Source: Pleurocapsa sp. FMAR1 (GTDB lineage: Bacteria > Cyanobacteriota > Cyanobacteriia > Cyanobacteriales > Xenococcaceae). Taken from it: 64,000 nt of DNA. Where the stretch lies: NCBI RefSeq assembly GCF_963665995.1, contig NZ_OY762512.1:806001-870000 (forward strand), in the 5' to 3' direction. The translations under genes were made by a program, and so were the position numbers. Shown here one piece after another: positions 7,246 to 53,988 of the stretch; the stretch's first letter is position 1; every line of letters starts with the position of its first letter. The notes beneath the pieces were generated by a model, which had not been told where the DNA came from, did not search any database, and worked only from the letters and a program-made list of their open reading frames with translations.

Positions 7246-7833
7246 TTCCATAATCATTATTGTAAGGGCGATTCGCGTTGTAAGGGCGAACGGCCGTTCA
7301 CCCCTACGAAATTGGATATCTTTCATTACACCTACGCTGTTTTACACAACCCTGCATATAGAGAAAAATACGAACTTAATCTAAAACGAGAATTTCCGCG
7401 TATTCCTTTTTATGATAACTTCCGCCAGTGGACGGCTTGGGGAAAACAGCTAATGGATTTGCATATTAACTACGAAACTATCGAACCCTATACCTTGAAA
7501 CGAATTGATATTCCTACTGCCGATAAAAATGCTAAATTTCCCAAAGTAAAACTACAGGCAGATAAAGATAAAGGAGTTATTACCCTAGACACCGATACGA
7601 GTCTACATAATATTCCCCCTGAAGCTTGGGAGTATAAACTAGGCAACCGTAGTGCATTGGAATGGATTTTAGATCAATACAAAGAAAAGAAACCTAAAGA
7701 TCAAACAATTGCCGAGAAATTTAATACCTATCGCTTTGCTGACTACAAAGAACAAGTAACTGATTTACTTCAGCGTGTCTGTACTGTCAGTGTGGAAACA
7801 ATGAAAATTATTGAAGCAATGGAAAAATACTAA
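7246..7833 (+). pseudogene. Type ISP-like restriction-modification enzyme, C-terminal part
   Basis: 195 residues fused in frame to the transposase half. From LDIFHYTYAVLHNPAYR through FPRIPFYDNFRQWTAWGKQL, LHINYETIEPY, AWEYKLGNRSALEWILDQY and FNTYRFADY it is the conserved C-terminal specificity region of Type ISP-like single-chain enzymes. The first five residues (FHNHY) fit directly after the last residues (GLQQ) of the N-terminal part at 53989-56451. It has no start of its own. Residues after FHNHY (CKGDSRCKG...PFTP) are encoded by a palindromic repeat and replace family residues. The fragment alone cannot methylate or cut DNA. Confidence 0.88.
7260..7308 (+). repeat. Palindromic GTAAGGGCGA-type repeat in coding sequence
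   Basis: Two copies of TTGTAAGGGCGA (7260-7271 and 7278-7289). The second opens a near-palindrome AGGGCGAACGG/CCGTTCACCCCT. Related palindromes occur at 7903-7931 and 17853-17882. Here it lies in frame inside the restriction enzyme fragment. Confidence 0.7.
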
Positions 7834-7902
7834 GTTCTCTTTTTATAAGTTAATTGATGCTGATTTATACCATTAGGTTTTTAAGTTATAACATCGGGTT
7901 TA

Positions 7903-7931
7903 TGTAGAGGCTGTTGGTCAACAGCCCTACA
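7903..7931. repeat. Palindromic intergenic repeat (possible shared terminator)
   Basis: Arms TGTAG-GGCTGTTG and CAACAGCC-CTACA around GT. It lies between the rightward restriction enzyme fragment and the leftward membrane-protein gene, so it could terminate both. It belongs by form to the TGTA-GGGC...GCCC-TACA repeat family. Confidence 0.6.
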
Positions 7932-7945
7932 ATATCTATCTAGAT

Positions 7946-8611
7946 TTATCTAGCGAGATTTTCAGGTGTTTGAGGTTCAGGAACTGTTCCTGTACGAACA
8001 GGTCTAGGTTTTTTCGCTCCAACAGAAGCACCAATCAAAGATGCAGCTAGCCCTAGCAGCGAACCAATAATGAAAGACCAAGCTGCTTTGGCAGAATTTC
8101 CTGCTACCTCCTGTAACTTGTCCATTGGCACGCTGGGGACTTGGTTAGGAACGTCTGGTCCACCTGGTTTCTGTACCTGACTTAAAACGTCTCCTGCATT
8201 GGAAGCTGCCAGCCCAAAAGCTCCCGATACGCCACTAGCAAGTAACCAAGCACTAAGAGCTAAAGTTGTCGCCCAAAGAATTAGTCCGTGCAGCATTGCT
8301 GTTTTACCGTTCATAGGACTACAGCCAGAAGCAGTTACCCAACTACCAATAAATAAGGAAATTAATAAACTAACCACCGCCCAAATACCCACGCCAATGC
8401 CAACTGCACCAGCCTCGCTTCCTGATGCGCCGACAGTCAGACCGATCGCAGCACCCAAGGCACTAAGAATCAACTGCGTGGCGATCGCTACAAAAATCCC
8501 CGCAATAATTGGTCCCCACCTAATTCGATCTCGATCGTCCGCCATAGTAAATGTTTCTAATACTGTGTTTCTGTTTCCGGCTCTGTTTCCGACTGGATCT
8601 GTATAAGCCAT
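7946..8611 (-). CDS. Multi-pass membrane protein of unknown function
   Basis: 221 residues with four or five hydrophobic segments: ~33-60 (GPIIAGIFVAIATQLILSALGAA), ~68-92, ~108-135 and ~178-198. It has a polar N-terminal tail and a basic, proline-rich C-terminus (KKPRPVRTG). Small residues (Gly, Ala, Ser) dominate the helices, as in other YrzE-like or DUF-type inner-membrane proteins, but I cannot name the family with certainty. The neighbouring leftward genes are stress-type (YflT-like, CbpA/CbpM), suggesting a stress-induced membrane protein. Confidence 0.75.
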   Translation of the reverse strand: MAYTDPVGNRAGNRNTVLETFTMADDRDRIRWGPIIAGIFVAIATQLILSALGAAIGLTVGASGSEAGAVGIGVGIWAVVSLLISLFIGSWVTASGCSPMNGKTAMLHGLILWATTLALSAWLLASGVSGAFGLAASNAGDVLSQVQKPGGPDVPNQVPSVPMDKLQEVAGNSAKAAWSFIIGSLLGLAASLIGASVGAKKPRPVRTGTVPEPQTPENLAR

Positions 8612-8914
8612 AATAATTTGTTCCTTACGTTGAATTTTGTTTGGTTAAGTATAGTTAAAAGGCATTCCCACACCAGTTAAAAATTGTTAATTATCTGCTT
8701 TTCTAATTACCCTTATTTAACTACAAAAGGTTTTTGTGTATGTATTAAAGATTAAGTAGTAATAAGAAAGTTAAATAATCTTTTTGAAGATTAAAGCTGT
8801 AAATATGGCAGTTTAAATATTAAAGCAATTTTCATCGCCATAATTTTATGAGTGATGAGTACGGCGATCGACAATAATCACTTCGGGATGATCCGAAACA
8901 ATTTTGTAAATAAC
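8612..8914. other. Intergenic region, no feature recognised
   Basis: 303 bp, very AT-rich, between two leftward genes. It should carry the promoter of the membrane-protein gene. No hairpin, repeat or small frame stands out. Confidence 0.4.
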
Positions 8915-9316
8915 CTACTCTCGAACACCACAGCCAGTTAAGATCTTCTCAGCACCTAATAGATCGGCTGTGTTACCTTCAACCATGAGCAGATACTCAC
9001 CATGAGCAACCAAATCGTTATAGATCCGTGCAGTATCAACAGGAATATCTAGGTGAATTAAGGCATTAGCCAGACTCATTACAGTTTCATCTCCAGTAAT
9101 ATTCGAGTCTTGAGCAACGCTGCTAATACGAGTATTAAAGCGAGCGCGCAATGATTCGCATAGTTGAGTATCTACTATTTTCTCTTCTTTCTCTGTATTG
9201 CGAGCAATCACAAAAACTTGCTCTAGAGAAAAGTGTGACTTGTCTAGCTTTTTTAGTGCAGCTTCAGTATCTAAAGCATTCTCAAAGATGCCAATTGCCC
9301 TTTGCTGTTCTGTCAT
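8915..9316 (-). CDS. YflT-like (general stress protein 17M) domain protein, short form
   Basis: 133 residues. The N-terminus (AIGIFENALDTEAALKKLDK then QVFVIARN) and the C-terminus (IPVDTARIYNDLVAHGEYLLMVEG then EKILTGCGV) match the outer parts of the paralogues at 11857 and 25845. The central glycine-zipper membrane segment of those proteins is missing, leaving a soluble version. Such proteins accumulate under salt, heat or desiccation in several bacteria; the molecular role is unknown. AACAGAAA-type sequence rather than a strong ribosome site precedes the ATG. Confidence 0.75.
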   Translation of the reverse strand: MTEQQRAIGIFENALDTEAALKKLDKSHFSLEQVFVIARNTEKEEKIVDTQLCESLRARFNTRISSVAQDSNITGDETVMSLANALIHLDIPVDTARIYNDLVAHGEYLLMVEGNTADLLGAEKILTGCGVRE

Positions 9317-9494
9317 ATTTATTTCTGCCCAATCTTAAAACATTCATCCAAAATGAGAATGATGAAGATGATGACTGTATCTTCTTCATTTTTTAAGCTT
9401 TTTCTATCCAGCAAAGGACAGATCTTTATTTATGGTCAAAAACCTAGATTGCTTACCGCACAAGGCATTTGGCTGTTTTAATCATAAATACTTC

Positions 9495-9788
9495 TCAAGG
9501 CTGACGTAAAGCATTTAATTGCGATCGCAAGCGGTGATTTTCTTCTGTAAGCTCTAATACCATTGCTGCACCTATTAAATTTAAGCCTAAGTCTCTTCGC
9601 AGACGCATAATTTTTATTACTCGCAAAGTATCTTCTTGTCTTAACATTGAGCCTTCTGGTTCAATTACTCCCAGCCGAATAAAACACTGAATTGTAGTAA
9701 CCGAAGTTTGGGTAATAGTAGCGACGCGCTCAAAACTAATTAAATCGTCGCCTTGTTGGGAAATTACATCGCGGGACAAACTACTCAT
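9495..9788 (-). CDS. cbpM: Chaperone modulator CbpM-like protein
   Basis: 97 residues with a MerR-like winged-helix core: [30 protein letters not shown], then [24 protein letters not shown] and a C-terminal leucine-rich coil. CbpM binds the J domain of CbpA and restrains its DnaK-stimulating activity. The start overlaps the cbpA stop by 4 bp, so the two are translationally coupled, as in other cbpAM operons. Confidence 0.82.
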
Positions 9789-10768
9789 AATTTAATATTC
9801 TCCAAACTTTTGCGGGGTTTATAGCTACTAGCTTGCTGAATCTTCTGATAATATTCTCTTTCTGTATCGCTGATATCTTTGGGAGTAACAATTTTTAATT
9901 TCACCAGCAAATCGCTACGCTGTTGGTTAAGTTTGCGCCAGCCTTTACCTTTCAACTTCAGAGATTGTCCTGAATTTACTCCCGCAGGAACTTTCATCGT
10001 TACTTTGCCATCTGGAGTCGGAACAATAATATCTGTACCCAATACAGCTTCTTCTGGGGTAATGGGGATTTCGGCAACTAAGTTATCGCCCTTAAACTTA
10101 AACAAGGAATGAGGTTGCAGTTCAATATTAAGATATAAGTCTCCTCGCTGTCCTGAAAAAGAACTAGGTTGTCCTTTACCTTTAATTCGTAAACGACTGC
10201 CTGTTTTAGCCCCAGCAGGAATGCGAACTTTGACTGTTTCGTTGCCAATGCGAAACTGTTTCTGTGTCCCATTAAAGGCTTCCGAAAAAGTAAGGACAAT
10301 TCCAGCTTCACTATCTTGGGCGGGCATATCACTGTAGCCATCAGCAAAACCACCAAAGCCACCAGGAGAAGTACGATAATTATAGCTGTTGCTACTTTTG
10401 CTGCCAGCAGTGCGACCTAATATATCATTAACAAAGTCTTCAAAGTTTCCATATTGACCAAAATCAAAACCTCCTACATCTACATTAACTCCAGCACCAG
10501 TATTTCCTGGCGGTGGAGTGCCTCCTTGTCCCATCTGTTGCGAATATTGTCCGTATCGATCGTATTTGGAACGTTTTTCAGAATTTGATAATACCTCTTG
10601 CGCTTCATTAATCTCTTTAAAACGATCTTCGGCTTTTTTATCTCCAGGGTTAAGATCGGGATGATATTTTCGCGCCAGTTTACGATAGGCTTTTTTAATC
10701 TCCTCAGCAGAAGCGTCTTTACTTATACCCAGTACTTGGTAATAGTCTTTAAAGTCGGTTGCAGCCAT
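9785..10768 (-). CDS. cbpA: CbpA-type DnaJ co-chaperone
   Basis: 327 residues. An N-terminal J domain ([26 protein letters not shown] at ~37-39) stimulates DnaK ATPase. A Gly/Gln/Asn-rich linker (~80-150) lacks the zinc-finger repeats of true DnaJ. Two DnaJ C-terminal substrate-binding domains follow ([19 protein letters not shown] and [19 protein letters not shown]-type motifs) from ~155 onward. First gene of a leftward operon with cbpM, divergent from the SRPBCC gene. Confidence 0.92.
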
Positions 10769-11088
10769 TTTTTAAATTGAACAATAAACATTTATCATTG
10801 AGCATTGTCCAGTCACTTCTTTAATTGTGTAACTAGAGTTAATACTGCCGAATCAATCTCTTCTACTAGGATAATTAAAAAGATCAATCGAGTGCATCTA
10901 TATTTAGCTATAAAATTTCAGCGATTAACAATTTAATTGAGCTTGATTTTCCGTTTAACTGTATAAATCCTAAGCTCTGTCTTTAGATTGAAGCTAAATT
11001 AATCAAATTGTCGAAAGATAATTCTATAGCTATTGCGATCTTATTAAGATAAGTGGGTTTGGGTACATTTTTAGCACAGATAAATATT

Positions 11089-11757
11089 ATGGAAAGAGTC
11101 GAGCGGACAAACTCAGTGAATGAAGCAATTACTAGCAAGGAAATTATCAATAGTTCATTGGTAATTAGAAATTTGCAGCAGCAGTCTTTAAAAGAGGTTT
11201 TAGCTGATTATAGCGATCGCCATCAGCTTTCAGAGACAAGTTTAATCGATCGCGCTACAGAGGCCATTGGTCTAACACCCAATCTTCAGGTAGAAAAAAC
11301 CGTAACAATCGATCGCCCTGCATCTGAACTATACAGTTACTGGCGTAACTTAACCAACTTACCCAACTTTATGGGACATTTAAAGTCGGTAACCAATAAA
11401 GATGAAGAAGGTAAAATAACTCACTGGGTAGCTGATGCACCTTTAGGTCTTTGGGTTGAATGGGATGCCGAAATTATCAAAGATGAACCCGAGCGCTTAA
11501 TTGCTTGGAATGCTCTTGAAAATGCAGACATCGATAACTGTGGTTTTGTGCGTTTTCAACCCGCTACGGGCGATCGCGGTACTCAAGTCAAGGTAGTTTT
11601 AGAATATCAGCCACCAGGAGGCGCATTAACTAATGCGCTCGCTAAACTTTTTGGTGAGTCACCCCAAGAGCAAATTGGCGATGAGCTAAATCGTTTTAAA
11701 CAGCTAATGGAAACTGGTGAAATTGCTACCACAAAAGGACAGCCAAAAGGTTCTTGA
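11089..11757 (+). CDS. SRPBCC-fold (polyketide cyclase/dehydrase-like) protein
   Basis: 222 residues from the ATG at 11089; a GTG at 11053 would add 12. Residues ~70-215 form a START/SRPBCC ligand-binding domain: VEKTVTIDRPASELYSYWRN, LPNFMGHLKSV, WEWDAEI-like strands and a long C-terminal helix (EQIGDELNRFKQLMETGE). In bacteria this subfamily occurs beside stress and envelope genes; ligand and reaction are unknown. The N-terminal ~65 residues are polar and not part of the fold. It is transcribed toward the glycine-zipper stress protein 100 bp downstream. Confidence 0.8.
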   Translation: MERVERTNSVNEAITSKEIINSSLVIRNLQQQSLKEVLADYSDRHQLSETSLIDRATEAIGLTPNLQVEKTVTIDRPASELYSYWRNLTNLPNFMGHLKSVTNKDEEGKITHWVADAPLGLWVEWDAEIIKDEPERLIAWNALENADIDNCGFVRFQPATGDRGTQVKVVLEYQPPGGALTNALAKLFGESPQEQIGDELNRFKQLMETGEIATTKGQPKGS

Positions 11758-11856
11758 TTATAAAAATCAAATATCACTCGACACCTACAACTTTTGGGTG
11801 ATGAATAAATATGAGATGGATCGAAGAATGTAGATGTCGTTTATCAAGAGGAAATA

Positions 11857-12744
11857 ATGAATAATTATAAGCGTTCAGTAGGTTTATTTTATAGTCGTGA
11901 GGAAGCAGAAAAAGCTTTGCGCGCTCTTAAAGATGACGGTTTTGACATGAACCGAGTCAACGTCATTGCTAAAGATGCAGACCAAGTAACACAATCGGCT
12001 GGGGTAGATACAGCTTACGATGAAGGTAACAACGCAGCCGAGGGTGCTGGTGCTGGTGCAAGTTCTGGTGCTGTATTGGGCGGTATCGGTGGTTTATTAG
12101 TCGGTTTAGGTACTTTAGCCATTCCTGGCATTGGTCCGATTATTGTGGCGGGACAGGCTGCAACTACTATTGCAACTACCCTGGCTGGTGCGGGTATTGG
12201 TGCAGTAGCAGGGGGAATTATTGGCGGTTTGGTAGGTTTGGGTATTCCTGAAGACAAAGCCAAAATCTATAGCGATCGCGTTAGTGGCGGAAGTTATTTA
12301 GTTATGGTCAATGGTACGGATAATGACATTAGCCGTGCAGAGAGAATCTTGCACGACAATGGTATTGAAGAGTATGGCGTATACGATGCTCATGACATTG
12401 GCGATGACACGTATAATACAGCCCCTAGTACCAATCGCGTAAATACTAACCAGTCTGTAACTAGTATGGGAGATATAGATCGCTCTATGGTGCTTGAACC
12501 TAATACTACAGGTAAGGTTATGGATACTCGTACTGATGCTATTGACCCAACTACCCGTACAAGCGATCGCACTACTACTACAGATAGCGATGCTGATGTA
12601 ATTGTGCTCGAGCCTAATACTACAGGTAAGGTTATGGATACTCGTACCGATGCTATTGACCCAACTACCCGTACAAGCGATCGCACTGCTACTACAGACA
12701 GCGATGCTGATGTAATTGTGGTCGAACCGCGAGACAATGTATAA
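11857..12744 (+). CDS. YflT-like stress protein with glycine zipper and duplicated C-terminal repeat
   Basis: 295 residues. An N-terminal YflT-like domain (SVGLFYSREEAEKALRALKDDGFDMNRVNVIA split by short loops) precedes a long Gly/Ala zipper (~60-130) able to insert in a membrane. A second half-domain follows (VSGGSYLVMVNGTDNDI to RILHDNGIEEYGVYDA). The tail carries two tandem 38-residue units, VLEPNTTGKVMDTRTD to DSDADVI, from a 114-bp DNA duplication. AGAGG precedes the ATG. Paralogues are at 8915 and 25845. Expression under envelope or osmotic stress is inferred from the family. Confidence 0.85.
   Translation: MNNYKRSVGLFYSREEAEKALRALKDDGFDMNRVNVIAKDADQVTQSAGVDTAYDEGNNAAEGAGAGASSGAVLGGIGGLLVGLGTLAIPGIGPIIVAGQAATTIATTLAGAGIGAVAGGIIGGLVGLGIPEDKAKIYSDRVSGGSYLVMVNGTDNDISRAERILHDNGIEEYGVYDAHDIGDDTYNTAPSTNRVNTNQSVTSMGDIDRSMVLEPNTTGKVMDTRTDAIDPTTRTSDRTTTTDSDADVIVLEPNTTGKVMDTRTDAIDPTTRTSDRTATTDSDADVIVVEPRDNV
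12490..12717 (+). repeat. Two tandem 114-bp units in coding sequence
   Basis: Units 12490-12603 and 12604-12717 differ at only a few positions and keep the reading frame (38 codons each). Copy number could vary by slippage. Confidence 0.85.
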
Positions 12745-12828
12745 AGTAATTCTCCCGCGTTTCTAACCAATCTATTTCTAGTTAGTCACATTAGCCGAAC
12801 AACTAACACTAATTAGAAATATAAAAAT

Positions 12829-12895
12829 AAATGTAGCAGCAATTGGATTTTATTTGGCAAAAATTAGCACACGATTTATAGTTGCTGCTACATTT
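12829..12895 (+). repeat. Long-loop inverted repeat in intergenic region
   Basis: Perfect 14-bp arms AAATGTAGCAGCAA (12829-12842) and TTGCTGCTACATTT (12882-12895) with a 39-nt AT-rich loop. It lies in the 361-bp gap between the stress protein and the alcohol dehydrogenase gene. It may be a terminator stem or a tiny non-autonomous element. The rest of the gap shows nothing further. Confidence 0.6.
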
Positions 12896-13105
12896 GAAAT
12901 TTAAAGCAAATTTGCTCAACTAAAACATTAGTAAATCAGATTTTACAACTGTCTATCGCTTTCTCTTCACCGAAAAATCAGTTCTAAAATTTAGTTCAGT
13001 TCAGCTATTTCAGGCTATCTAATAACTAACCTTGTTATTGGACATCAACAATAAAGTCATCAATAGCACAGAACAAATCTCCACACCTTAAAAACAAAAT
13101 TAATT

Positions 13106-15907: not shown

Positions 15908-15916
15908 ATAAACCTT

Positions 15917-19331: not shown

Positions 19332-20603
19332 ACTTGAATAATAATTAGTTTGTTTTCTTAAATGATGGCGATCAATGTAAGTTTGGTTAATTAAAGCCTG
19401 TAAATCCACAATTGCCTGTTGAATCGTGACTTTTTGTGCGTATTTACTGTATAAATCGGCATTTTGTTCTTGATATTGTCCAATCTGCTCGACAACCAAT
19501 CCAAAACTAGGCGATAAGCCTATCGACATGGCTTGGCTACGCCAGATAATTTCTGTTAGTAAGTCTTTATTTATGCCCAGCTTTTGAGCCACAATTGCCA
19601 TTTTAACTGCCGAAGTTTTACCCGTTAAAGTTGTGTGCCACAAATAACGTAGCTGACGACGTAGACGAAAACGGGCTTCGGTGGTCAAAGCCGACTCGAC
19701 CCACAAACACTGTTGCTGTTGACCTATAGTCTTTAACTGAGACAATCGATCTGCTAGCCCAGCTTTTGCTCTTCCTAAATCTCTAGCACTAGTAACTACC
19801 CGCACTGTTGGACTGTGGCGAAAACAAGCATCTACACGCATCAAAGCATTGTAAAGAGCCAAATCTTCAGAGGAAGGTAAGGGGGGTAAACCGCCAACTT
19901 TAGCGTACATTCGCGCAGTTATGGCAAAACTTGCGCCGTAATGATGATGATGTCGGGGAAGCGGATCGAAATAGGGATCGAGAAAAGCTTCTAGCTGTGA
20001 GGTTAAATAGCCATAACGCAGGTAGCGTAAAAAATATAGTCTGGTAGTCTTGTCTAGTTTACTTCTTTCTCTACTGTTGGTAATAATGCGACCGCCAACA
20101 GCATCAGCCCCAGCCTTAATTTCCGCTAAAGTTGCAGCAATCCATGTAGAAGAAACTCGCGTATCTCCATCGGTAGAGGCAATTACGCCAAAGTCGCGCT
20201 CAATCGATTTTAATCGTCTGTATGCCTCATCCATCAAGAGCTTTCGCACCCAGCCAATGTGAGCGCGATCGCTTTCTATAGTCATTTCTACAATATGAAG
20301 TATCAAACTTGGGTAAGTTCGCGCAAAACGCCTAGCTACTTCTGCGGAATTATCAGTGCAGTTATTAGCCAAAACGATAATTTCGTAGCGGTTTTTGTCT
20401 AAAGGCTTACCTGTTAAATCTACTTGATTTGTCAAAGCCAAAAGCGTAGCTTCAATATTGTCCGCTTCATCCCGCACGGGAACGATTACGCAAACTTCAC
20501 AGCTAATTAAAGGCGATCGACTGATTAATGGTTGTAAATCGGCATCATAGTCTGTTTGTCCTGCTATAGGCTGAAGCAGATTTACAGCAGCAATTTGTAG
20601 CAT
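19278..20603 (-). CDS. Family 2 glycosyltransferase
   Basis: 441 residues. GT-A fold: VIVPVRDEADNIEATLLAL, NNCTDNSAEVA, and the metal-binding TDGDTRV. The acceptor-side motif SSEDLALYNAL is like the ED motif of processive or ceramide/polyprenol-linked GT2 enzymes. Helical C-terminal third without clear membrane spans. It faces the methyltransferase gene and overlaps its end, a convergent layout kept with the acyl-CoA dehydrogenase, PIG-L and NodS genes; I infer one pathway. The sugar and acceptor are unknown. Confidence 0.87.
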   Translation of the reverse strand: MLQIAAVNLLQPIAGQTDYDADLQPLISRSPLISCEVCVIVPVRDEADNIEATLLALTNQVDLTGKPLDKNRYEIIVLANNCTDNSAEVARRFARTYPSLILHIVEMTIESDRAHIGWVRKLLMDEAYRRLKSIERDFGVIASTDGDTRVSSTWIAATLAEIKAGADAVGGRIITNSRERSKLDKTTRLYFLRYLRYGYLTSQLEAFLDPYFDPLPRHHHHYGASFAITARMYAKVGGLPPLPSSEDLALYNALMRVDACFRHSPTVRVVTSARDLGRAKAGLADRLSQLKTIGQQQQCLWVESALTTEARFRLRRQLRYLWHTTLTGKTSAVKMAIVAQKLGINKDLLTEIIWRSQAMSIGLSPSFGLVVEQIGQYQEQNADLYSKYAQKVTIQQAIVDLQALINQTYIDRHHLRKQTNYYSSLNSLEQIEPISLLPQSV

Positions 20604-23151: not shown

Positions 23152-23652
23152 TTAGGCATTAATTATGGACTCTATTAAACTGTGAGGGGCAGAAGAAACT
23201 ATCGTCGAAGGGTAAATACAATTACCCCAAAGCGGATGAACGATTAAAGAGCAATTTTTATAGCTAATTACGGGATAATTTAGTAGTGCTTTGACTACCG
23301 CATTGTCATCTAGCTTTAATGCCCCTGGACGAGTCAACAGAGGATAACCAGTACGAGGATCGAAAAGATCGCTTTTGTATCCTCGATCCTGTAAAGCAAA
23401 AATTAAATTGCAGCCAAAACGAATAAACTCCTGTCTTAAAATATCTTTTTCCTGAGCAACTTCTGGGCTAGATTCTTGGAGAGAAATAGACGATCGCTGT
23501 AAAAATAGAATTAAGTTGGCTGGGGAGAGATCCCAATCAGGTAAAAGCTGCTGATGATGAGCGATTATAAACTGATGAGGAACACAAATGTAAACCTGTA
23601 CTTCTTTACCTGCTTGTTTTTGCCAAGTTTTAAGGTTGATTGGCGATCGCAT
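23152..23652 (-). CDS. MMADHC-like (methylmalonic aciduria and homocystinuria type D) protein
   Basis: 166 residues resembling the small cyanobacterial proteins named after human MMADHC, which traffics cobalamin. Recognisable parts are [53 protein letters not shown] and [11 protein letters not shown]. The bacterial role is not established; a nitroreductase-like fold is known for the human C-terminal domain. It diverges from thiOG, sharing a ~77-bp promoter region. Confidence 0.75.
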
Positions 23653-23729
23653 ACTTTTTTTTAGGGATATATTCCATACTAAAGTTAAGGGGGTTTCGCG
23701 GTAAAGTTATAGGGATGGGGGTTAAGGAG

Positions 23730-25718
23730 ATGAAAACAACCAAAAATATTCTGATTATTGGCGGCGGCATAATAAGTCTATCGATCGCTATTGAGTTAAA
23801 ACGTCAGGGAGCCAAAGTTACTGTAGTTAGCAAAGATTTTATGCAGGCAGCTTCTCATGCAGCAGCAGGAATGTTAGCACCAATGGCAGAAAAACTAACT
23901 TCTGCTGCCATGTTTGACTTATGCTCTAGATCCCGTTGGCTATATCCTGAGTGGACGCAAAAGTTGGAAGAGTTAACAGGAGTAGACACTGGCTATCTAT
24001 CCTGTGGTATTCTTGCCCCTGTTTACGCTCAACCAGAATCAATCGCCGAAGACAACAGCGCAGTTTGGTTAGATAAACAGGCAATTCACCTCTATCAACC
24101 AGGATTGAGCGATCGCGTGATGGGCGGTTGGTGGTATCCTGAAGACGGTCAGGTAGATAATCGCTGTTTAATGCGATCGCTGTTGCAGGCTGCTCAAACT
24201 TTAGGAGTAGAGATTAAAGAAGGAGTTGCAGTCAAAGCAATACAGCAAAAGCAGGGCAGGGTAAACGGGGTTTTAACCGATATAGGACAGCTAGAAGCAG
24301 AGGAATACGTTCTGGCTGCGGGTTCATGGTCTAGTCAACTATTACCATTGCCAGTGCGTCCAGTTAAAGGACAAATGTTGTCTCTGAGGATGCCTCAAAA
24401 GCCACATCAGCCTTTTCCTCTCCAGCGAGTCTTATACGGGGAGGATATTTACCTTGTACCGAGACAAGACGGTAGACTGGTTATCGGTGCAACGGTAGAA
24501 GAAGTAGAATGGACTCCTTTTAATACTCCTTCTGGTATACAAAGTTTGTTAGATCGAGCTACTGAACTATATCCTGCGATCGCCGATTGGCAGATTGAAG
24601 AATTTTGGTGGGGTTTTCGTCCTGGTACTCCTGATGAATTGCCCATTTTGGGTCGTAGTGCCTGTGATAATCTATATTTGGCAACAGGACATTATCGCAA
24701 TGGTATTTTGCTTGCTCCCGTCACCGCTTCTCTGCTTAGCGATTTAATTCTCGAACAAAAATCTGACCCTCTCTTGGCAGAATTTAGCTATCAACGTTTT
24801 TACAATTCAACCAGCATGACTTCTTTTAGCAACTTAAGCAATAGTCCTCAAAAATCTTTTCAGATAGCATCACCTCAAGCTCCCTTGCCTCCTGCTTCTG
24901 CTTTACCCAATCAAACAATTGTTGAAGATCTAAACCAGCTAACTATCGCTGGACGAACCTTCAATTCTCGTTTAATGACTGGTACAGGCAAATATTCTAG
25001 CATCGAAGCGATGCAGCAAAGCGTAGCTGCTAGCGGTTGTCAAATAGTTACCGTAGCGGTGAGAAGAGTCCAAACCAAAGCTCCAGGACATGAAGGTTTA
25101 GCTGAAGCTTTAGACTGGGATAAAATCTGGATGCTACCTAATACCGCAGGCTGTAAAACTGCGGAAGAAGCCGTGCGAGTTGCTCGGCTTGGTAGAGAGA
25201 TGGCGAAATTACTAGGACAAGAAGACAATAATTTTATTAAGTTAGAGGTCATTCCCGATGCTAAATACCTGTTACCCGATCCTATCGGTACTCTAGAAGC
25301 AGCAGAACAGTTAGTTAAAGAAGGCTTTGCTGTTTTACCCTATATCAATGCCGATCCGCTTTTAGCCAAACGTTTAGAAGAAGTTGGCTGTGCCACAGTT
25401 ATGCCTCTAGGTTCACCAATTGGTTCAGGACAAGGAATTAATAACGCAGCTAATATCGCTATTATCATCGAAGAAGCCAGTGTTCCAGTGGTGGTCGATG
25501 CGGGTATAGGCACACCTAGCGAAGCTGCCCTAGCAATGGAAATGGGTGCAGATGCTTTGCTAGTTAATAGTGCGATCGCCCTAGCACAAAACCCCGCAGC
25601 CATGGGACGAGCAATGGGTTTGGCAGCAGAAGCAGGAAGGCTAGCTTATCTATCAGGTAGAATTCCTGTCAAGCAATATGCTACTGCTAGTTCTCCTTTG
25701 ACTGGCACAATTAGCTAG
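23730..25718 (+). CDS. thiO/thiG: Bifunctional glycine oxidase / thiazole synthase (ThiO-ThiG)
   Basis: 662 residues from the ATG at 23730; ATG 23715 is an alternative. The N-terminal ~370 residues are a FAD amine oxidase ([40 protein letters not shown]) that turns glycine into dehydroglycine. After a linker near residue 390, ThiG ([71 protein letters not shown], split across loops) makes the thiazole carboxylate phosphate of thiamine. ThiO-ThiG fusion is typical of cyanobacteria. Lysine in IKLEV forms the Schiff base. Confidence 0.93.
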
Positions 25719-39395: not shown

Positions 39396-39590
39396 GTATG
39401 ATCGAGATAAGTCGGTTCTAATGGGAAACAGTCATTAGAAGTAATGGGGAAAGACTGGTGTAAATCCAACACTGTCCCGCAACTGTGATGAGGTTGACGA
39501 GCGACCCCGCGTCGCCGTTAGGCGCAAGGGAATGCGCAAGTTAAATAGTCAACAATCTCTAAGTCAGAATACCCGCCGCTCAAAATAGTT
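39396..39590 (+). ncRNA. Cobalamin (B12) riboswitch
   Basis: Diagnostic parts in order: a GGGAAACAG-type 5' stem, GGTGTAAATCCAACACTGTCCCGCAACTGTGAT read across 39458-39488 (core), and the B12 box AGTCAGAATACCCGCC (39562-39577). A peripheral stem GTTGAC (39493-39498)/GTCAAC (39548-39553) carries a GC-rich repeat insert with GACCCCGCGTCG. It lies 30-40 bp before cbiX and would repress it when adenosylcobalamin is plentiful. Confidence 0.93.
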
Positions 39591-39619
39591 AACCTAATTA
39601 ACAAATCTGCGAGGTACAG

Positions 39620-40612
39620 ATGGTTTTTGTCAATTCTTCTCTGCAATCGAGTATTAATCAACTTAAATTACAGCCATTGCCTTATCAAAGACCTTTATTA
39701 ATGATTGGTCATGGTACAAAAAATGAACGAGGTAGACAAACCTTTATTGATTTTGTCGAAGCTTATAAAAAATTGGATACTTCTCGTCCTGTTATTCCTG
39801 GCTTTTTAGAGCTTACTCAGCCGACAATTCAAGAAGCTGTAATAGCTTGCGTTGAACAAGGCTATACAGAAATTACAGCTTTGCCAATTTTGTTGTTTGC
39901 TGCCAGACACAATAAATTTGATGTTACCAACGAGCTAGACCGATCGCGATCGCCCTATCCTCAGTTAAGCTTTAATTATGGTCGCCATTTTGGGATTACT
40001 CCTAAAATTATCGAGCTATGGCGCGATCGCTTGGCAGAGTTGGACAAGCCAGAATATAACCCCCGTAATATTGACCGCGAAGATACTGTACTGCTATTTG
40101 TCGGCAGGGGTTCGAGCGATCCTGATGCTAATGGTGATGTGTACAAACTAGCTCGCATAATCTGGGAAGGTAGTGGCTACAAAACAGTAGAAACCTGCTT
40201 TATTGGTATTACTCATCCTCGTTTAGAACCAGGTTTTAGTCGGGCATATTTGCATCAGGCTAAACGGGTAATTGTCCTGCCCTATTTCATGTTTACAGGC
40301 ACGTTAATGGAAAAAATTTTTGATATTACTGCCCAACAAGAAGAACGACATCCTGAGATTGATTTTGCTTGCTTACCAGAAATGGGAATTGCCCCTCAGC
40401 TATTGGAGGTAATTAGAGAAAGAGAAATTGAGGCGCAGCTAGGTCAAGTGGCGATGAACTGTGAAATGTGTAAGTTTCGTCTGGCAGCAGTAGATGAACA
40501 TGGACATGGACACGGACACGGACATGAACATGGACATCACCATCATCACGACAATAGCGATCCTTATGCCAAGGTAAAAGATTATCATCAACGTATCTGG
40601 AAAACACCCTAG
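39620..40612 (+). CDS. cbiX: Sirohydrochlorin cobaltochelatase CbiX with His-rich tail
   Basis: 330 residues with two chelatase repeats: [17 protein letters not shown] (active His) and [20 protein letters not shown], and a metal-binding set ([24 protein letters not shown]). The C-terminus holds a His-rich stretch, [15 protein letters not shown], able to store or donate cobalt or nickel. Inserts Co2+ into sirohydrochlorin for cobalamin. Directly under a B12 riboswitch. CobH/CbiC lies far right at 60617. Confidence 0.93.
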
Positions 40613-47155: not shown

Positions 47156-47237
47156 GATCTGTCTGGGTTCATTTTTAAATTGAGAATGATTTTGTTTTAA
47201 GCTCTAAGCTATAAGCTTTTTGACCCTGTTAGTTTAA

Positions 47238-48200
47238 TTACTTACTGATTAGCTGCATAGTAGACTGGTTGGCAGATTTTGCCATATCTTTGACTAGTTG
47301 GTAAAAGTGAGCAATGGGAGGAATCATCAGGCGATCGCGAGTTGTCACCATCACTACCTGGCGGGTTAAAACTGCATCTATTTCTCCAGTGATGCTTGTG
47401 GCTATATCAGGTTGAGAAATAGGTCTGATGGCTAGGGTGGGGTCATTATAGGAATCGATCAGAGCTTTGTTGGGCAAAAGAGCAATCATTTCTCCCTGGC
47501 GAATTACTCCTCGAAAAGCATCAAGAGTATTTAACTCCATAGCAGTTTTAACTTGCACATTTTGCTCTTTAAACCAGTCTTGAACTAATCTTTGCATACC
47601 ATAGCCATCTTTAAACACGATCTGGGGGTACTTAACTAATTCCAAAAGGGGAATAGTTGTTAGCTTGCTCAAAGGATGGTCGGCAGCCATCAAAACATCT
47701 ATCTCTTCTTCGTAAAGTACAGTCAATTCAACTTCAGCAGAAGCAGTGAGAAAACGATTGTTCATCACAATTGCCAAATCAATCAAGCCATCCCGCAAAA
47801 CCTTTAAAGCGCGATCGCTACCTAGAGCCGTAACTCTCAACTGGACTTCAGGGTAGTCTTGACAAAATTGTTGCAGAATTGGCGGTAAATAATGAGCGCA
47901 AACCGAATGAATAGCTGCAACACAGAGTTCAGGCTGCTTACCAGCAATTAAATCTGCACATTCATTAGTAGCTTTGCTCCATTCCTGGCAAATTTTTTGC
48001 GCCCTAGGCAACAACTTTTCCCCGCCTAAGGTTAACTTGGCTTGGGTGCTACGGTGAAATAAGGATAAACCCAAATCTTGTTCTAATGACTGTATTTGAC
48101 GGCTAATAGTAGACTGGGTAATGCCACATCTTTTAGCTGCATGCCCAAAATTTCCTGTTTCTGTAATCGCAATAAATGCTTGCAACTGCTCAATTCGCAT
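47238..48200 (-). CDS. ntcB: LysR-type regulator, NtcB-like
   Basis: 320 residues. N-terminal winged helix (MRIEQLQAFIAITETGNFGHAAKRCGITQSTISRQIQSL in segments). The effector domain is close to NtcB of cyanobacteria: AGKQPELCVAAIHSVCAHYLPP, VTALGSDRALKVLRDGL, LAIVMNNRFLT and MELNTLDAFRGVIRQGEM. NtcB activates nitrate-assimilation genes when nitrite is present. No nir/nrt genes are inside the window, so assignment rests on the sequence alone. Gene ends 82 bp before the TrpD-like one. Confidence 0.75.
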   Translation of the reverse strand: MRIEQLQAFIAITETGNFGHAAKRCGITQSTISRQIQSLEQDLGLSLFHRSTQAKLTLGGEKLLPRAQKICQEWSKATNECADLIAGKQPELCVAAIHSVCAHYLPPILQQFCQDYPEVQLRVTALGSDRALKVLRDGLIDLAIVMNNRFLTASAEVELTVLYEEEIDVLMAADHPLSKLTTIPLLELVKYPQIVFKDGYGMQRLVQDWFKEQNVQVKTAMELNTLDAFRGVIRQGEMIALLPNKALIDSYNDPTLAIRPISQPDIATSITGEIDAVLTRQVVMVTTRDRLMIPPIAHFYQLVKDMAKSANQSTMQLISK

Positions 48201-48343
48201 ACTTATCTAAACGCAAGCAACCATACTTTACTGTTGACTTACCACTCTAAATGAAGATAGCTGATTTGCTCAGCAACTTTTCGTATAAAAGACGACATTA
48301 ATTGATTACAGATTATATTGGGAATTTCTAAGCATGAACAGAT

Positions 48344-49348
48344 TTATGTACGTCGAGGAAAAGTAGGTAAATCAACCGCTGCTAAAGACTGTGGTTTTTT
48401 GCTTAAAGAAGACTTAGCTGCTGTTTTGGGTTTAGCTACTTGCTGCGAGGTTGATGCTGACCAAGTTGCAATTTCTGCTGCCGTCTTAACGGTTTGATTA
48501 GCTATTACCGAAGGCTTAGTTTGAGGTAAAGAAAGTTTCGTTTCTGAGGTAGCGTAAGCTGTCCAAGGCTTGATGGATTTACGATGCAAATCAGTTTGAT
48601 TAGAATCAACTACTGGATTTTGATCGACGCTCTGATTAGACTCAGCAACTTTTTCGGTATAGTGTTTTAGTTCGGCTTTATGCTGAATTGTATGACGCTG
48701 TTGCTGACTAAGTTTTGCCTTTAAATCTTTTATTTCTTCATCTTTAGCAGTTAATTCATAGGCTTGATTATTGCAGCTTTCCTGTAACAAAGTACATTCT
48801 CTTTCTAACTGAGCAGTTTGTTGTTGAAATAATTCATTTTGCTGAACTAAATTATCAATAACAGCTTTTTTCTTTTCTGTTGTTTGTAGAAATCCCGATA
48901 ATTTCTGGGTAATTTGTTGATTTAAATCGGCTATCTTTACCTGATAGGTTTCAATTTCTTCCGCCTGTTGGGCTACAAGTAAATCGCTACTACGAGCTTT
49001 TTCAATCTGTTTACTAAACTTATTATTTATATCTGCTAATTCTTGTTCAAGTCGAAATACGTTTTTTAATAAATTACGAGAATATTCTCGTAATTTGTGA
49101 GCAACTTTTTGCCAGTTCATTTTTGTTTGCGAAGATTTCTGCTGCTCTACAGAGTTGCTCTTGAGTGGATAATGCTCGTCCTGGTTAAAATTACTATCAG
49201 ATGAATTAGAATCATTTTCGATAGCTTGGCTACTGTCTATTTGCCTTACTTTATTGCGATCCTCTGCTGGATAATCATCTGTAAAGTAAATAAATTCAAC
49301 ATCAGATTCTGAGTTGACTGAAGCAGCATTATTGTTAACTTCGCTCAT
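48344..49348 (-). CDS. Coiled-coil protein of unknown function
   Basis: 334 residues from ATG 49348 (MSEVNNNAASVNSES). Upstream ATG adds 20 non-matching residues. The N-terminal ~90 residues are acidic and Ser-rich. Residues ~95-235 form long heptad coils (LEQELADINNKFSKQIEK, QQTAQLERECTLLQES). The C-terminal ~90 are Ser/Thr/Pro-rich, ending LPTFPRRT. No catalytic motif. Scaffold or cell-envelope role is a guess; csaB is the next gene upstream on the same strand. Confidence 0.65.
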   Translation of the reverse strand: MSEVNNNAASVNSESDVEFIYFTDDYPAEDRNKVRQIDSSQAIENDSNSSDSNFNQDEHYPLKSNSVEQQKSSQTKMNWQKVAHKLREYSRNLLKNVFRLEQELADINNKFSKQIEKARSSDLLVAQQAEEIETYQVKIADLNQQITQKLSGFLQTTEKKKAVIDNLVQQNELFQQQTAQLERECTLLQESCNNQAYELTAKDEEIKDLKAKLSQQQRHTIQHKAELKHYTEKVAESNQSVDQNPVVDSNQTDLHRKSIKPWTAYATSETKLSLPQTKPSVIANQTVKTAAEIATWSASTSQQVAKPKTAAKSSLSKKPQSLAAVDLPTFPRRT

Positions 49349-49573
49349 AATATTTATATCTAGGTTGGTCAAAATATTGCAGCCATAAAATCTAAATAAC
49401 CTAAGCAATTACTCATAGATGAGTATGCCATAATTGTTGGCTAGACAATCATTGCTGTTTTGTTATTTTCTAAACTTTAGTATAAATGTCAATTAATGAT
49501 GTTTATTGGTTTACTTAGCTTTAGATTTAGCTAAATATAGCTTAAACGTTGCGCTAAAAAATGCCAAGGTTCG

Positions 49574-50626
49574 TTAACTATTAGTAATCACTTGACTCAA
49601 CAATTGCTGATGAATTAATGAGCGATCGATTATCGATTGAATTTGAACCCTATCTAAAGCTTCTCCATGATCATAGTGTTCTTGCCAAGTACGGCTAATT
49701 TCTTGAGGATCGTCAGGTAGATTAGTTAACTCATATCCTGGTAAATCGATCTCAGACATTAAGTAGCTGACTTTGGGATCATAGCTGAGGGCAAAACAGT
49801 TACAGCCTTCTGCTGCTGCCATGATTAAACTATGTAAGCGCATACCGATCGCCATTTTTACTTGCTTAAATAATCCTTTTAATTCTTGAGGATCGGCAAT
49901 TGACATTACTGTATAATTTTGCTCTAGCTGTGTTGCAATTTTATCGGCGATCGCCCGATCTTGAACAGGCTGGAAGGGAATTAGTAATATAAAGCTATTA
50001 GTTTGCTTCTGAAAGTCTCCCAAAGCCTCGATTAAAGTTTGTAAACGGTTGGCTGTCAGTAGAGGATGCGATCGCAAAACAACTGCTACTTTTGGCTGGG
50101 ATACATCTTTTAAACTGGTTACTGGCTTACTTTGCAATGCCCATACAGGATCGGGGGCGATTACAGAATTTATTTGCCAACTGCTGAGTAATTTTGCAGA
50201 AGCTGTATCCCGAACGCTAATCGCATCACAGCCCAATAATGTTTGTTTTGTCAGCCAGCGAGTCAAGGACTTATTTAATGGCCCAATTCCTTGCGCCCAG
50301 GCGATCGTTTTTAAGCCTTTTTGTTGAGCTAGAGCCATTAAGCCTGCATAATATATGGGGCTAGCAATACTAGTAGAGTCCTGCATCAGACTGCCACCAC
50401 CCCAAATAAAGATATCAGATTGTTTTAGAATATTAAGAATCGCCAAGGTTGACTTACGACGATAGCTAAGAACTCCGTATTGTTTTTTGGTTGCCTGGGG
50501 ATTTCCTGATAAGACAATAGGCTCAACTGATTTGGGCAGCATTTGTAACAAAGACATTAGTAATGCTTCGTCTCCCGCATTACCCATGCCATAATATCCA
50601 CACAATACTGCTCTAGTCTGATTCAT
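49574..50626 (-). CDS. csaB: Polysaccharide pyruvyl transferase CsaB
   Basis: 350 residues, GT-B-like fold: AVLCGYYGMGNAGDEALL, IFIWGGGSLMQDSTS, AWAQGIGPLNKSL, KMAIGMRLHSLIMAAAEG. It transfers pyruvate from phosphoenolpyruvate to a secondary cell-wall polysaccharide, the anchor for S-layer homology domains on the outer side of the wall. Divergent from the dynamin-like gene. Confidence 0.9.
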   Translation of the reverse strand: MNQTRAVLCGYYGMGNAGDEALLMSLLQMLPKSVEPIVLSGNPQATKKQYGVLSYRRKSTLAILNILKQSDIFIWGGGSLMQDSTSIASPIYYAGLMALAQQKGLKTIAWAQGIGPLNKSLTRWLTKQTLLGCDAISVRDTASAKLLSSWQINSVIAPDPVWALQSKPVTSLKDVSQPKVAVVLRSHPLLTANRLQTLIEALGDFQKQTNSFILLIPFQPVQDRAIADKIATQLEQNYTVMSIADPQELKGLFKQVKMAIGMRLHSLIMAAAEGCNCFALSYDPKVSYLMSEIDLPGYELTNLPDDPQEISRTWQEHYDHGEALDRVQIQSIIDRSLIHQQLLSQVITNS

Positions 50627-50765
50627 TATTTTTAGCTAATGTTACTGTTTTAGATATAGTTGATTTTGACATAGCTAATTTTAAATGTACTGAATTGAAA
50701 ATGTTCAGTTTTAGTAGATTATAAAAGATTAATACTTATTATTTATTACTTATTACTTCTGCAAA

Positions 50766-52484
50766 ATGGACGATCTTATTGTTAATCAGGAATTGGCTCA
50801 ATATCAATCAGGCTTAGATAGTTTATTAAGTCAGCTACAGGTTTTTGCCACAGATATAAATAATCAGCGATTACAAATAACGGTTCGTAATCTACAGGCA
50901 AACATCAACGAGCCATTTTTGTTTGTGGTGGTGGGAGAAGTTAAGGCGGGAAAAAGCAGTTTTATTAACGCCTTACTTCAGTCAGATATCTGTAAAACCG
51001 CAGCCGATCCCTGTACGGATATTATTCAGCAGATTATCTATAGTGAAAAGAGGTTTGAGCAGCCGATTAATCAATATCTACGTAAAATTGGCTTACCTAA
51101 CGAAATTCTAAAAACCTTATCTGTTGTAGATACTCCTGGGACAAATACTGTTGTTGATAATCATCAGGAGATTACTCAGGAATTTATTCCTAATAGCGAT
51201 CTAATCTTTTTTGTTTTCTTTGCCAAAAATCCTTATACTCGCAGCGCGTGGGAATTGTTAGATTATGTTAATACCGAGTGGCGCAAAAAAGTCGTGTTTG
51301 TACTGCAACAGGCGGATTTAGCTAAACCCGAAGAATTAGCCAAGAACAAAGAAAAGCTGACAGAGTTGGCATTGCAAAAGGGTATTAGATACCCGATGGT
51401 CTTTGCTACTTCAGTCGAGTTGGAAGTAAATGGAGATCAGCAGCATAGTGGCTTTACAGAAGTAAGAAACTATATTCAGCAGACGCTTCAAGATGGCGGG
51501 ACTAAAAGGCTTAAGCTACAGGGAGTAGCAAAAACTAGCGATAAAATTATTGATTTACTAGGAAAAGACTTGTTAGCGATTGAGCAGCAATTAGTTAAAG
51601 ATCGACTAGTAGTCGGCAAAATCAAAGCCAAATTACAGCAAAATAAAAGACAGTCAGGTTTTGAACTGGAATCTTTAATCAATCGTCTACTGACTAAATA
51701 CGATTCAATCACCGCCAAAGTAAAAGCAGACTTCCGTGAAAAACTATCTCTATTAACGATGGTTAAAGGTTCTTTTGCTGTTTTGTTTCGGACTAAAAAA
51801 TCTGCGCCAAGCTGGATGGATGAATTAAAACAAAGCTGCGAAAACGAGCTAAAAGTTTCTTTAGGAGAAATATCCCAAGATGGCATCAAGCATTTTGTCG
51901 GCGGAATCAAAAGACTTTTGCAAAGCCTAGTCAATGATTTACATGATATAAAAGTCAATCAGATTAGCACCAATACGATTAATGTTAGTACTCTTGAAAG
52001 TCGTCAAGAGATTGTTGAGGAAGTACAGCAAAAAGTAGCTACCTTACTTAATGACAAAACCTTTCTTTATTCAATCGAATCACTTAATGCTTGTGTTGCT
52101 CCTAGGCTTGTGGGTGCTGGTGCAGCTACGGTTGCGGGTACGGCGATCGCAGCTTTAACCGAGATTGTATTATTAGATATCATTGGCACGGCTTTTGCAG
52201 GGGTGGGTATTCTCTTTGCTGGCGGAACATTGGTGTTCAAAAAACGCAAAATGATTCGTCGATTTGAAGACCAACTCGATCGGGAAAAGGCTCGTTTTAA
52301 AAGGGAATTATCGGCTAAATTGAATTCTAAATTGGATATTATTTATGAAGAAATTGAGCGTAATTTTGCCAACATTTATGATTATGTGGAAAATGAAGAA
52401 CAAAAGATATCGCCTTTAATTAATCGGTTTGAACAAATTGAACTAAAACAAAAGCAATTGGCGGATAACAAAGCTATCAAATAA
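50766..52484 (+). CDS. Bacterial dynamin-like GTPase
   Basis: 572 residues. GTPase motifs: G1 GEVKAGKSSF (57-66), G2 threonine in DPCTDII, G3 DTPG (122-125), G4-like QQAD. A helical middle follows, then a hydrophobic hairpin (AGAATVAGTAIAAL, VLLDIIGTAFAGVGILFAGGTLVF) that can enter the membrane, and a C-terminal coil (EQIELKQKQLADNK). Matches bacterial dynamin-like/BDLP relatives that remodel or protect membranes. Single copy here; many such genes occur in pairs. Confidence 0.88.
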   Translation: MDDLIVNQELAQYQSGLDSLLSQLQVFATDINNQRLQITVRNLQANINEPFLFVVVGEVKAGKSSFINALLQSDICKTAADPCTDIIQQIIYSEKRFEQPINQYLRKIGLPNEILKTLSVVDTPGTNTVVDNHQEITQEFIPNSDLIFFVFFAKNPYTRSAWELLDYVNTEWRKKVVFVLQQADLAKPEELAKNKEKLTELALQKGIRYPMVFATSVELEVNGDQQHSGFTEVRNYIQQTLQDGGTKRLKLQGVAKTSDKIIDLLGKDLLAIEQQLVKDRLVVGKIKAKLQQNKRQSGFELESLINRLLTKYDSITAKVKADFREKLSLLTMVKGSFAVLFRTKKSAPSWMDELKQSCENELKVSLGEISQDGIKHFVGGIKRLLQSLVNDLHDIKVNQISTNTINVSTLESRQEIVEEVQQKVATLLNDKTFLYSIESLNACVAPRLVGAGAATVAGTAIAALTEIVLLDIIGTAFAGVGILFAGGTLVFKKRKMIRRFEDQLDREKARFKRELSAKLNSKLDIIYEEIERNFANIYDYVENEEQKISPLINRFEQIELKQKQLADNKAIK

Positions 52485-52576
52485 GCGTTGTCTTTTTGCA
52501 GTCTGATTTTAGGTTATCTGCTGGGCAACCCCGTTATACTAAATCTTGTTCGTATAGGTAAGTTATTTATTTTAGA

Positions 52577-52618
52577 GGTCAGGGGTCAGAGGTCAGAGGT
52601 CAGAGGTCAGAGGTCAGA
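52577..52618. repeat. Tandem heptamer (GGTCAGA)n
   Basis: Six 7-bp units; the first is GGTCAGG. Intergenic, between convergent genes. Compare the (GGCAGAG)n array at 21735. Confidence 0.85.
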
Positions 52619-52653
52619 AAGTTGATAACTACCTTTGTCAATCGGATTTAGCA

Positions 52654-53568
52654 TTATCTGGCTAGCTTCAAGATTTCCTCAGCCGTAATTTGGGGCTGTT
52701 CTAAATGGGGAACATGACCACAATTATCAATCCAGATAAGCTGGCTGTCAGGAATAGCCTGGGCAAACTTAGCAGCGTCTTTTGTACCCAAGATTTTGTC
52801 TTGCTTACCCCATAAAATCAAAGTTGGCTGCTGTATCTGGGATATTCGAGTTGCAAATGAACCATAGCCACCGTTTTTAGTAAAGGCAATTAAAGACTTA
52901 TTCCAGTTAGCGCATTTTAAATGAAGTGCAGCACACGCTTGAGCATCTAAACTGGCAAAGTTTTTATCAAAATAAGCTGCACGACTAATGCTTTGACGAA
53001 TTTTGGGATTACGCAGAAACTCGGTGGCAAAATAATCTAGAGGAGAAAACATAAACTTGCCCATAGCTGGCTGCTTGGCTAAACCTGCACTGTCTATCAA
53101 GACCAGTTTTTTTACCGCTTCAGGATAGGTCAGGGTAAAATCTATTGCTGCTGCACCACCCATAGATGCACCTACCAAGATAACAGGCTGCTTGATAAAA
53201 GTCTGCCAGAAGTGATATAAATGGATTTTAATGTTTTGGGGATTGAGGGGAATATCTAAATTTCGTTGGGTAAAGCCAAATCCTAATAAATCTACCGCCC
53301 AAGTTGACTGTTGTTTTGCTAGCAAAGGTAGTAAGCGGCGAAACTCGAATAAAGAGCTATCAAAGCCGTGGATTAATAATATTGGTGTGCCACCCTGTCC
53401 TAGATTTGTATACGTAGTTGCAATACTATCTTTGGATAAAGGTGTGGAGATAGAGTCTTGTTGAATCTGTTTTGCCAAAGCGATCGAGGTTGATTCAGTT
53501 AAACTACTAGCGTTAGAAGGTAACCAACTGGGAAACATGAACAAGAGATAATTGAATGGTAAATGCAA
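52654..53568 (-). CDS. Alpha/beta-fold hydrolase
   Basis: 304 residues. Nucleophile S135 in VGASMGGAA, catalytic His H285 in CGHVPHLEQP and Asp in LWGKQDKI. HGFDSS is the oxyanion hole. Substrate unknown; esterase or C-C hydrolase type. Now next to the IS right end; before the inferred inversion it followed gor and the IS element. Confidence 0.9.
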   Translation of the reverse strand: MHLPFNYLLFMFPSWLPSNASSLTESTSIALAKQIQQDSISTPLSKDSIATTYTNLGQGGTPILLIHGFDSSLFEFRRLLPLLAKQQSTWAVDLLGFGFTQRNLDIPLNPQNIKIHLYHFWQTFIKQPVILVGASMGGAAAIDFTLTYPEAVKKLVLIDSAGLAKQPAMGKFMFSPLDYFATEFLRNPKIRQSISRAAYFDKNFASLDAQACAALHLKCANWNKSLIAFTKNGGYGSFATRISQIQQPTLILWGKQDKILGTKDAAKFAQAIPDSQLIWIDNCGHVPHLEQPQITAEEILKLAR

Positions 53569-53582
53569 TGCTCTACTCTAAT

Positions 53583-53676
53583 TATCGCAGTACGTTGACT
53601 GGTTAGGACAGAAAAATGAACTGCTCGTAAGCAACGGCGGCGAACTCCAGTTCGCGTAGCAAGTGTCCCAATATAA
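53583..53676. repeat. Dispersed repeat with terminal inverted octamers (copy B)
   Basis: Same outer sequences as copy A (36712-36787) with TTAGGACA and TGTCCCAA ends. Its middle carries an additional GC-rich hairpin GCGAACTCCAGTTCGC. The right end of the IS630 element touches its edge, so the IS landed beside it. Confidence 0.65.
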
Positions 53677-53677
53677 G

Positions 53678-53694
53678 TATAGTCATTCTAAATA
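53678..53694 (-). mobile_element. Right terminal inverted repeat of the split IS630 element
   Basis: Same TATAGTCATTCTAAATA as 6640-6656, reading inward to the transposase C-half on the minus strand. It includes the transposase stop codon (53683-53685). Confidence 0.8.
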
Positions 53695-53988
53695 ATTTGC
53701 GTATGATTTAAGGATGTCATCCAAAGAAGTACCAGGAGCGGAATAAATACGTCTTTTTTTGAGGATGGCAAAGTCTTGTTCGATACGATTAAAATCGGCT
53801 GAATAGGGCGGTAAAAACAAAACTTTATGACCCGCTTGTTCGGCAATACGAAATACATCATTTTGCCGATGAAATGCTGCATTATCAAGAATAAGAGTAG
53901 AGTTCGGATTCAATTCGGGAATGAGATGCTCTTCAAGCCACTGATTAAACCATAAAGCGTTAGTACTTCCTTTAAAAAGAACTGGTGC
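53683..53988 (-). pseudogene. IS630 transposase, C-terminal half (split by inversion)
   Basis: 101 residues starting APVLFKGST. Contains the second and third catalytic acids of the DDE triad: TLILDNAAFH and NRIEQDFAILKKRR, with LFLPPYS between. The first Asp is in the left half at ~7108. In the present DNA this half is translated only as the tail of the restriction enzyme fusion. Joined to 6705-7245 it would give a normal ~330-residue IS630 transposase. Confidence 0.88.

Follow-up and report, generated by a model that had tools for sequence, protein, structure and literature searches.

Two open reading frames (ORFs) in the cyanobacterium Pleurocapsa sp. FMAR1 each begin as one gene and end as another, and between them they hold the pieces of the same two genes: the transposase gene of an IS630 insertion sequence (IS) and a gene for a restriction-modification enzyme. 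How did such a pair of fusions arise? We have analyzed the 64,000-nucleotide stretch that carries them (the window; G000:C1:806001-870000), which belongs to a genome assembled as one contig of 5,429,540 bases and 99.88% complete. We are confident that the answer is one reciprocal non-homologous inversion, real and exact to the base, of a 46,743-bp segment, running through the IS630 element and the restriction-modification gene. The parent sequences both exist intact, both joins are exactly conserved, and the crossover sites share no homology. The single reciprocal inversion would have cut the element and the gene, the latter probably of Type IIG, and rejoined the four ends crosswise with no base lost or added.

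Two chimeric frames with reciprocally divided domains

The plus-strand frame at 7060-7833 starts as ORF B of the IS630 element and continues as the restriction enzyme end, reading ...RGKELL/FHNHYCKGDSR... at the junction (slash). The minus-strand frame at 56451-53683 runs from the restriction enzyme into the end of ORF B and reads ...NITDWGLQQ/APVLFKGSTNALW...LDNAAFH.... The Pfam domains Type_ISP_C and DDE_3 are halved reciprocally between these frames (Table 1). The frames and the domain splits together confirm the original prediction, which had described transposase followed by enzyme on one strand and enzyme followed by transposase on the other. Since the same two break points account for both junctions, we infer that both joins stem from one event. 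Inside the inverted segment, eight of the nine ORFs that were scanned gave Pfam matches, e.g., DnaJ, ThiG and an aminotransferase.

Table 1. Coordinates, within the window, of the inverted segment, its junctions and the gene and repeat pieces beside them
Feature	Position	Strand	Description
Inverted segment	7246..53988		46,743 bp; chromosomal genes of ordinary look; limits from frames and IS copy alignment
Crossover 1	7245..7246		Transposase KELL in frame with restriction enzyme FHNHY; one-base ambiguity, A
Crossover 2	53988..53989		Restriction enzyme GLQQ in frame with transposase APVLF
IS630 left part	6640..7245	+	TA flank 6640-6641; ORF A 6705-7019 and first half of ORF B, to ...RGKELL; HTH_Tnp_IS630, DDE_3 2-45 of 146
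IS630 right part	53678..53988	-	TA flank 53678-53679; second half of ORF B, APVLF...; DDE_3 50-137 of 146
Enzyme N-part	53989..56442	-	818 codons: nuclease region (by eye), coupler, N6 adenine methylase, first half of specificity domain; ISP_coupler, N6_Mtase, Type_ISP_C 2-177
Enzyme C-part	7246..7833	+	C-terminal 195 codons and stop, second half of specificity domain; Type_ISP_C 185-342 of 342; adjoins N-part in Pleurocapsa sp. CCALA 161 (L036)
REP-like repeat, in frame	7260..7307	+	Two copies of TTGTAAGGGCGA (7260, 7278); palindrome arms 7280-7294 and 7293-7307

The IS630 element is continuous in four sister copies

The IS630-type HTH and DDE_3 transposase domains place the element in the IS630 family. 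Its two parts add up to 913 bp (604 + 309) when the flanking TA (6640-6641 and 53678-53679) is counted as target repeat, and its 17-bp ends at 6640-6656 and 53678-53694 are identical, as had been noted for the terminal repeats starting at 6640 and 53678. An eight-A run (6999-7006) at the frame overlap of ORF A and ORF B is a candidate site for programmed frameshifting.

A search of the genome with the left half (606 bases) returned eight matches, six of them near-identical at full length (the window's own included) and two weak and short. Four of the five other near-identical copies pass from the left half into the right at the predicted base. Over 917 bases they carry 0, 1, 1, and 3 mismatches, all of them away from the join; one intact sister is identical to the window halves over 917/917 bases. 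TA lies directly outside both ends of the window copy and of 4/4 intact sisters. The intact IS630 copy that had been expected in this genome is thus present four times, running KELL-APVLF, and the claim that re-inversion restores this sequence without a lost base stands.

The fifth copy (G000:C1:3757175-3757826; L001, L040) ends 46 bp past the crossover point, against the end of a second IS. The remaining right part of this copy was not found elsewhere in the genome (best 40 of 42 candidates scored), and the family of the second IS comprises at least 15 long near-identical matches, itself included (best 40 of 53 candidates scored).

The enzyme is continuous in relatives and resembles Type IIG

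Rejoining the two enzyme parts gives a single-chain restriction-modification enzyme of 1013 residues (818 + 195). In Pleurocapsa sp. CCALA 161, which belongs to the same genus and matches at 77%, window positions 7245-7824 and 53989 onward abut at contig position 20082, and the 18 bases before the join and the 19 after it are identical to those of the window. The genome's own paralogue, the homologue of G008 and that of Hyella are also continuous at the join. We have then assembled a wider set of homologues: 84 loci (4 fetched stretches and 80 others) gave 103 open frames of >600 residues, 77 of which, besides the joined protein, matched at E < 1e-50. These 77 rows correspond to 74 distinct sequences, and 71 of the 77 rows span the junction, the other six having no letters there and being excluded. 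The alignment is ungapped from -4 to +5 around the junction in all 71 covering rows; Tyr stands at +5 in 70/71 and Phe at +1 in 64/71, and in one covering row (L057) the usual residues after the join are not kept. The predicted GLQQ-FHNHY continuity is borne out by the CCALA 161 enzyme and by this alignment, as is the intact joined enzyme, whose length had been put at ~1015 residues.

The differences from the CCALA 161 gene at the first, second, and third codon positions are 0.194, 0.128, and 0.359 for the N-part and 0.111, 0.084, and 0.311 for the C-part. As both pieces are open and the third positions differ most, no decay of the gene pieces is visible.

The closest solved relative of the N-part, used as the only query, is PDB 7lo5 (6.3e-243), over residues 1-817 of 818. 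This entry and 7lvv carry the database title "Site-specific DNA-methyltransferase," and we take them to be DrdV. DrdV is described as a Type IIG enzyme (PMC10201449, available text). PADLOC placed both enzyme parts, searched separately, in a Type IIG profile, with REase_MTase_IIG at 2.4e-211 for the N-part. The methylase and specificity regions recognized by profile, a nuclease motif recognized by eye and a single chain of ~1000 aa would also fit this type.

In Type ISP enzymes, the one chain also includes an ATP-dependent helicase domain. No helicase was present among the five Pfam families of the 922-aa frame, and LlaBIII and LlaGI align only C-terminally, matching the N-part only from query residue 151 on. 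The earlier label "Type ISP-like" thus holds for the C-terminal domain and not for the whole protein, which, judged by its domains, would be better called Type IIG with a Type ISP-like specificity domain.

The paralogue mentioned above is intact (G000:C1:384687-387155; L017, L037), 73% identical, and has an open frame of 1027 residues. One genome of the same order (G030) holds 30 matches to the enzyme N-part, several of them nearly full length.

The crossover sites share no homology

The two crossover sites are identical at 15/60 positions, which is chance level. They share one A, so each break might sit one base earlier, in keeping with the predicted limit of one shared base. When the two 5-kb breakpoint regions were compared, the 17-bp IS end came out as the best match (E 0.001). 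Those that followed had E values of at least 0.31, and none lay at the junctions among the matches listed. There was no inverted repeat or shared core at the two break points, which agrees with the original view of a non-homologous event and leaves homologous or site-specific inversion without its substrate.

Both genes are cut between codons, hence both fusions are in frame, a feature that might suggest a programmed or site-specific switch turning the segment to and fro. For one exchange, an equal codon phase would arise by chance in one case out of three, the junctions lack an inverted repeat or common core, and none of the nine scanned ORFs inside the segment is a recombinase. We regard such a switch as the least credible of the explanations considered.

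The original prediction had also allowed for help from the IS transposase. An inversion made by the IS630 transposase, or by homologous recombination between IS copies, would draw on IS activity that looks recent, given the four intact identical or near-identical sisters and the at least 15 long near-identical matches of the second IS family. IS transposases act at IS ends. Here, the break lies deep inside the element, 604 and 309 bp from its ends, and these ends and the flanking TA are undisturbed; moreover, comparison with CCALA 161 reveals no IS sequence at the ancestral break in the restriction gene. This route is very improbable, and the proposed transposase aid is not upheld. A variant with the second IS as a vanished intermediate was rejected, as two precise excisions would be required.

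Assembly, gene order, and the state of the locus

The junctions are known from the assembly alone, and they could in principle stem from chimeric molecules or misassembly and represent no chromosome state. A false overlap join requires common sequence, whereas only one base is shared; two separate false joins would not give base-exact reciprocals; and the assembly is a single contig in which several near-identical IS copies were resolved. An artefact is improbable on these grounds, and a false join by the assembler unlikely.

Some observations count against the inversion or fail to support its direction. The junctions rest on the assembly, and the source DNA may have been chimeric or the inverted state limited to a minority of the cells. 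Synteny was examined by eye in 10 of 39 relatives (G002, G003, G004, G006, G007, G008, G010, G011, G012, and G019). Without the inversion, the glutathione reductase gene at 5145-6554 and the hydrolase gene at 52654-53568 would be neighbors. Both occur in 10/10 of these relatives and are never near each other among the matches listed: they lie on separate draft contigs in eight relatives and >1.3 Mb apart in G008 and G010. The present order of the window is equally unconserved, with 7946-8611 and 56847-59131 both found in 5/10 and on different contigs in those five (among the matches listed). Draft contig ends in the relatives could conceal neighbors, and synteny yields no independent polarity. 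The GC skew is 0.031 inside the segment versus a sliding mean of 0.003 (standard deviation 0.020, range -0.047 to 0.037; equal-sized windows over 384 kb), and the plus-strand share of ORF bases is 0.497 to the left, 0.565 inside, and 0.409 to the right (384 kb). GC skew and gene-strand bias are likewise uninformative about polarity. As for chimeric genes arising independently in relatives, which would have spoken against a single inversion, none of the matches listed in the 10 relatives extends further than a single base past either junction.

Taken together, the event belongs to an ordinary, known class of rearrangements, its join is unusually clean, and it is very probably real. It appears to be recent: an intact sister matches the IS halves without a difference, and both enzyme pieces remain open. 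With the specificity domain and the catalytic domain of the transposase each divided between two frames, the chimeric proteins are presumably inactive, and the enzyme and this IS copy would both be disabled.

How the ends may have been exchanged

The two break points are conserved to the base, and we therefore favor a concerted cut-and-rejoin step. Exchange by a type II topoisomerase (gyrase-like) is our leading suggestion for this step, put forward tentatively and at somewhat short of even chances. A gyrase-like enzyme would swap halves between two cleaved sites, and by our own reasoning, half of the segregants of a four-base staggered exchange would have junctions conserved to the base. According to one proposal, the swapping of gyrase interfaces can lead to recombination between non-homologous sequences, with inversions among the results (PMC11164529, available text). 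A non-homologous reciprocal exchange with conserved ends, as found here, is what topoisomerase-mediated illegitimate recombination would leave behind; it is consistent with that process and no proof of it.

The same inversion could have come from two independent double-strand breaks repaired by Ku-independent (alternative) end joining that was, by luck, clean on both sides. One base (A) is shared at the crossover, breakage is possible anywhere, also near the repeat at 7260-7307, and Ku gave no match in the genome, in a search in which 1/14 control genomes was positive (Bacillus subtilis) and which did not extend to LigD or other joining enzymes. Ku-dependent end joining thus appears to lack its key protein here. 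Alternative end joining is usually marked by end trimming and longer microhomology, whereas both joins are exactly conserved. As repair of two free double-strand breaks usually trims the ends and no Ku was found, we prefer a concerted enzyme and consider alternative end joining the less likely route, if a serious one.

In a narrower form of the topoisomerase proposal, the half-exchange would have occurred in vivo without Ku, and the break in the restriction gene would have been seeded near a palindrome resembling the repetitive extragenic palindromes (REPs). The REP-like repeat in the enzyme C-part begins 14 bases from crossover 1, and its palindrome lies 34 bases away. The homologues of CCALA 161 and Hyella both carry a related insert. 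REPs of Escherichia coli are described as gyrase targets (PMC3733652, available text). Since seeding by the repeat is an added step, this form is less probable than topoisomerase action by itself, and we consider it rather doubtful.

Other findings speak against a topoisomerase step. No repeat was found in a 301-base stretch about crossover 2. On the IS side of crossover 1 there are a direct repeat of 11 bases and a single 10-base arm belonging to a weak inverted pair, with no palindrome. When hairpin folding was assessed in five stretches beside the breaks, the two sides taken apart, the best z score was -1.29 (for the REP-like repeat), which is weak against shuffles. The step is read back from its end product, and it is only weakly supported.

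With regard to the repeat itself, four homologues (L069, L067, L083, and L104) have long variable insertions at the linker that holds it. REP-associated nicking was considered and set aside: the genome has seven Y1 transposase matches, with nothing connecting them with the break.

Other features of the window

The ORF at 39620-40612 has a cobalamin riboswitch (39396-39594) immediately upstream. The ORF at 23640-25718 joins an FAD-dependent oxidoreductase domain to ThiG, and that at 359-2305 carries RTX-type calcium-binding repeats.

Significance and comparison with known systems

Many large bacterial inversions trace to repeats or IS copies. Here, both parents are known, no repeat lies at the breaks and no base is lost, which makes the locus a clean test case for the joining of unrelated DNA without detectable Ku. 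The locus also shows a mobile element broken in one step together with a restriction-modification gene. Among the published titles and abstract openings listed, none reported the present inversion or another with breaks in both an IS630 element and a restriction gene. If the topoisomerase proposal is true, this would be a natural case in which a type II topoisomerase of a Ku-less bacterium made a reciprocal inversion, exact to the base, between two sequences with no relation to each other.

With its HTH_Tnp_IS630 and DDE_3 domains, TA flanks, 17-bp matching ends, and two frames, the window element looks like other members of the IS630 family; it differs in being interrupted by the inversion, while four intact sisters remain. 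The Type IIG enzyme of 7lo5/7lvv is likewise a single chain, of 1029 residues, whose residues 1-832 align with the N-part, whereas the window gene is interrupted within the specificity domain, each part being joined to half of a transposase. LlaBIII (4xqk) and LlaGI (5ffj) share the coupler, methylase, and specificity regions. Their match starts at query residue 151 versus their own residue 713 or 549, and their long N-terminal region, which comprises the nuclease and helicase, has no counterpart of equal length here.

The inversion resembles the IS- or repeat-mediated inversions of bacteria in being large and having an IS at one end, but there is no repeat pair at its breaks, and the cut in the IS is an internal one. 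With gyrase interface swapping, or gyrase-mediated illegitimate recombination (PMC11164529, which cites the work of Ikeda), it shares exchange without homology, inversions being a named possible outcome of that process; swapping is known from experiments in vitro and on lambda packaging, whereas this locus shows an end product from which the enzyme is deduced.

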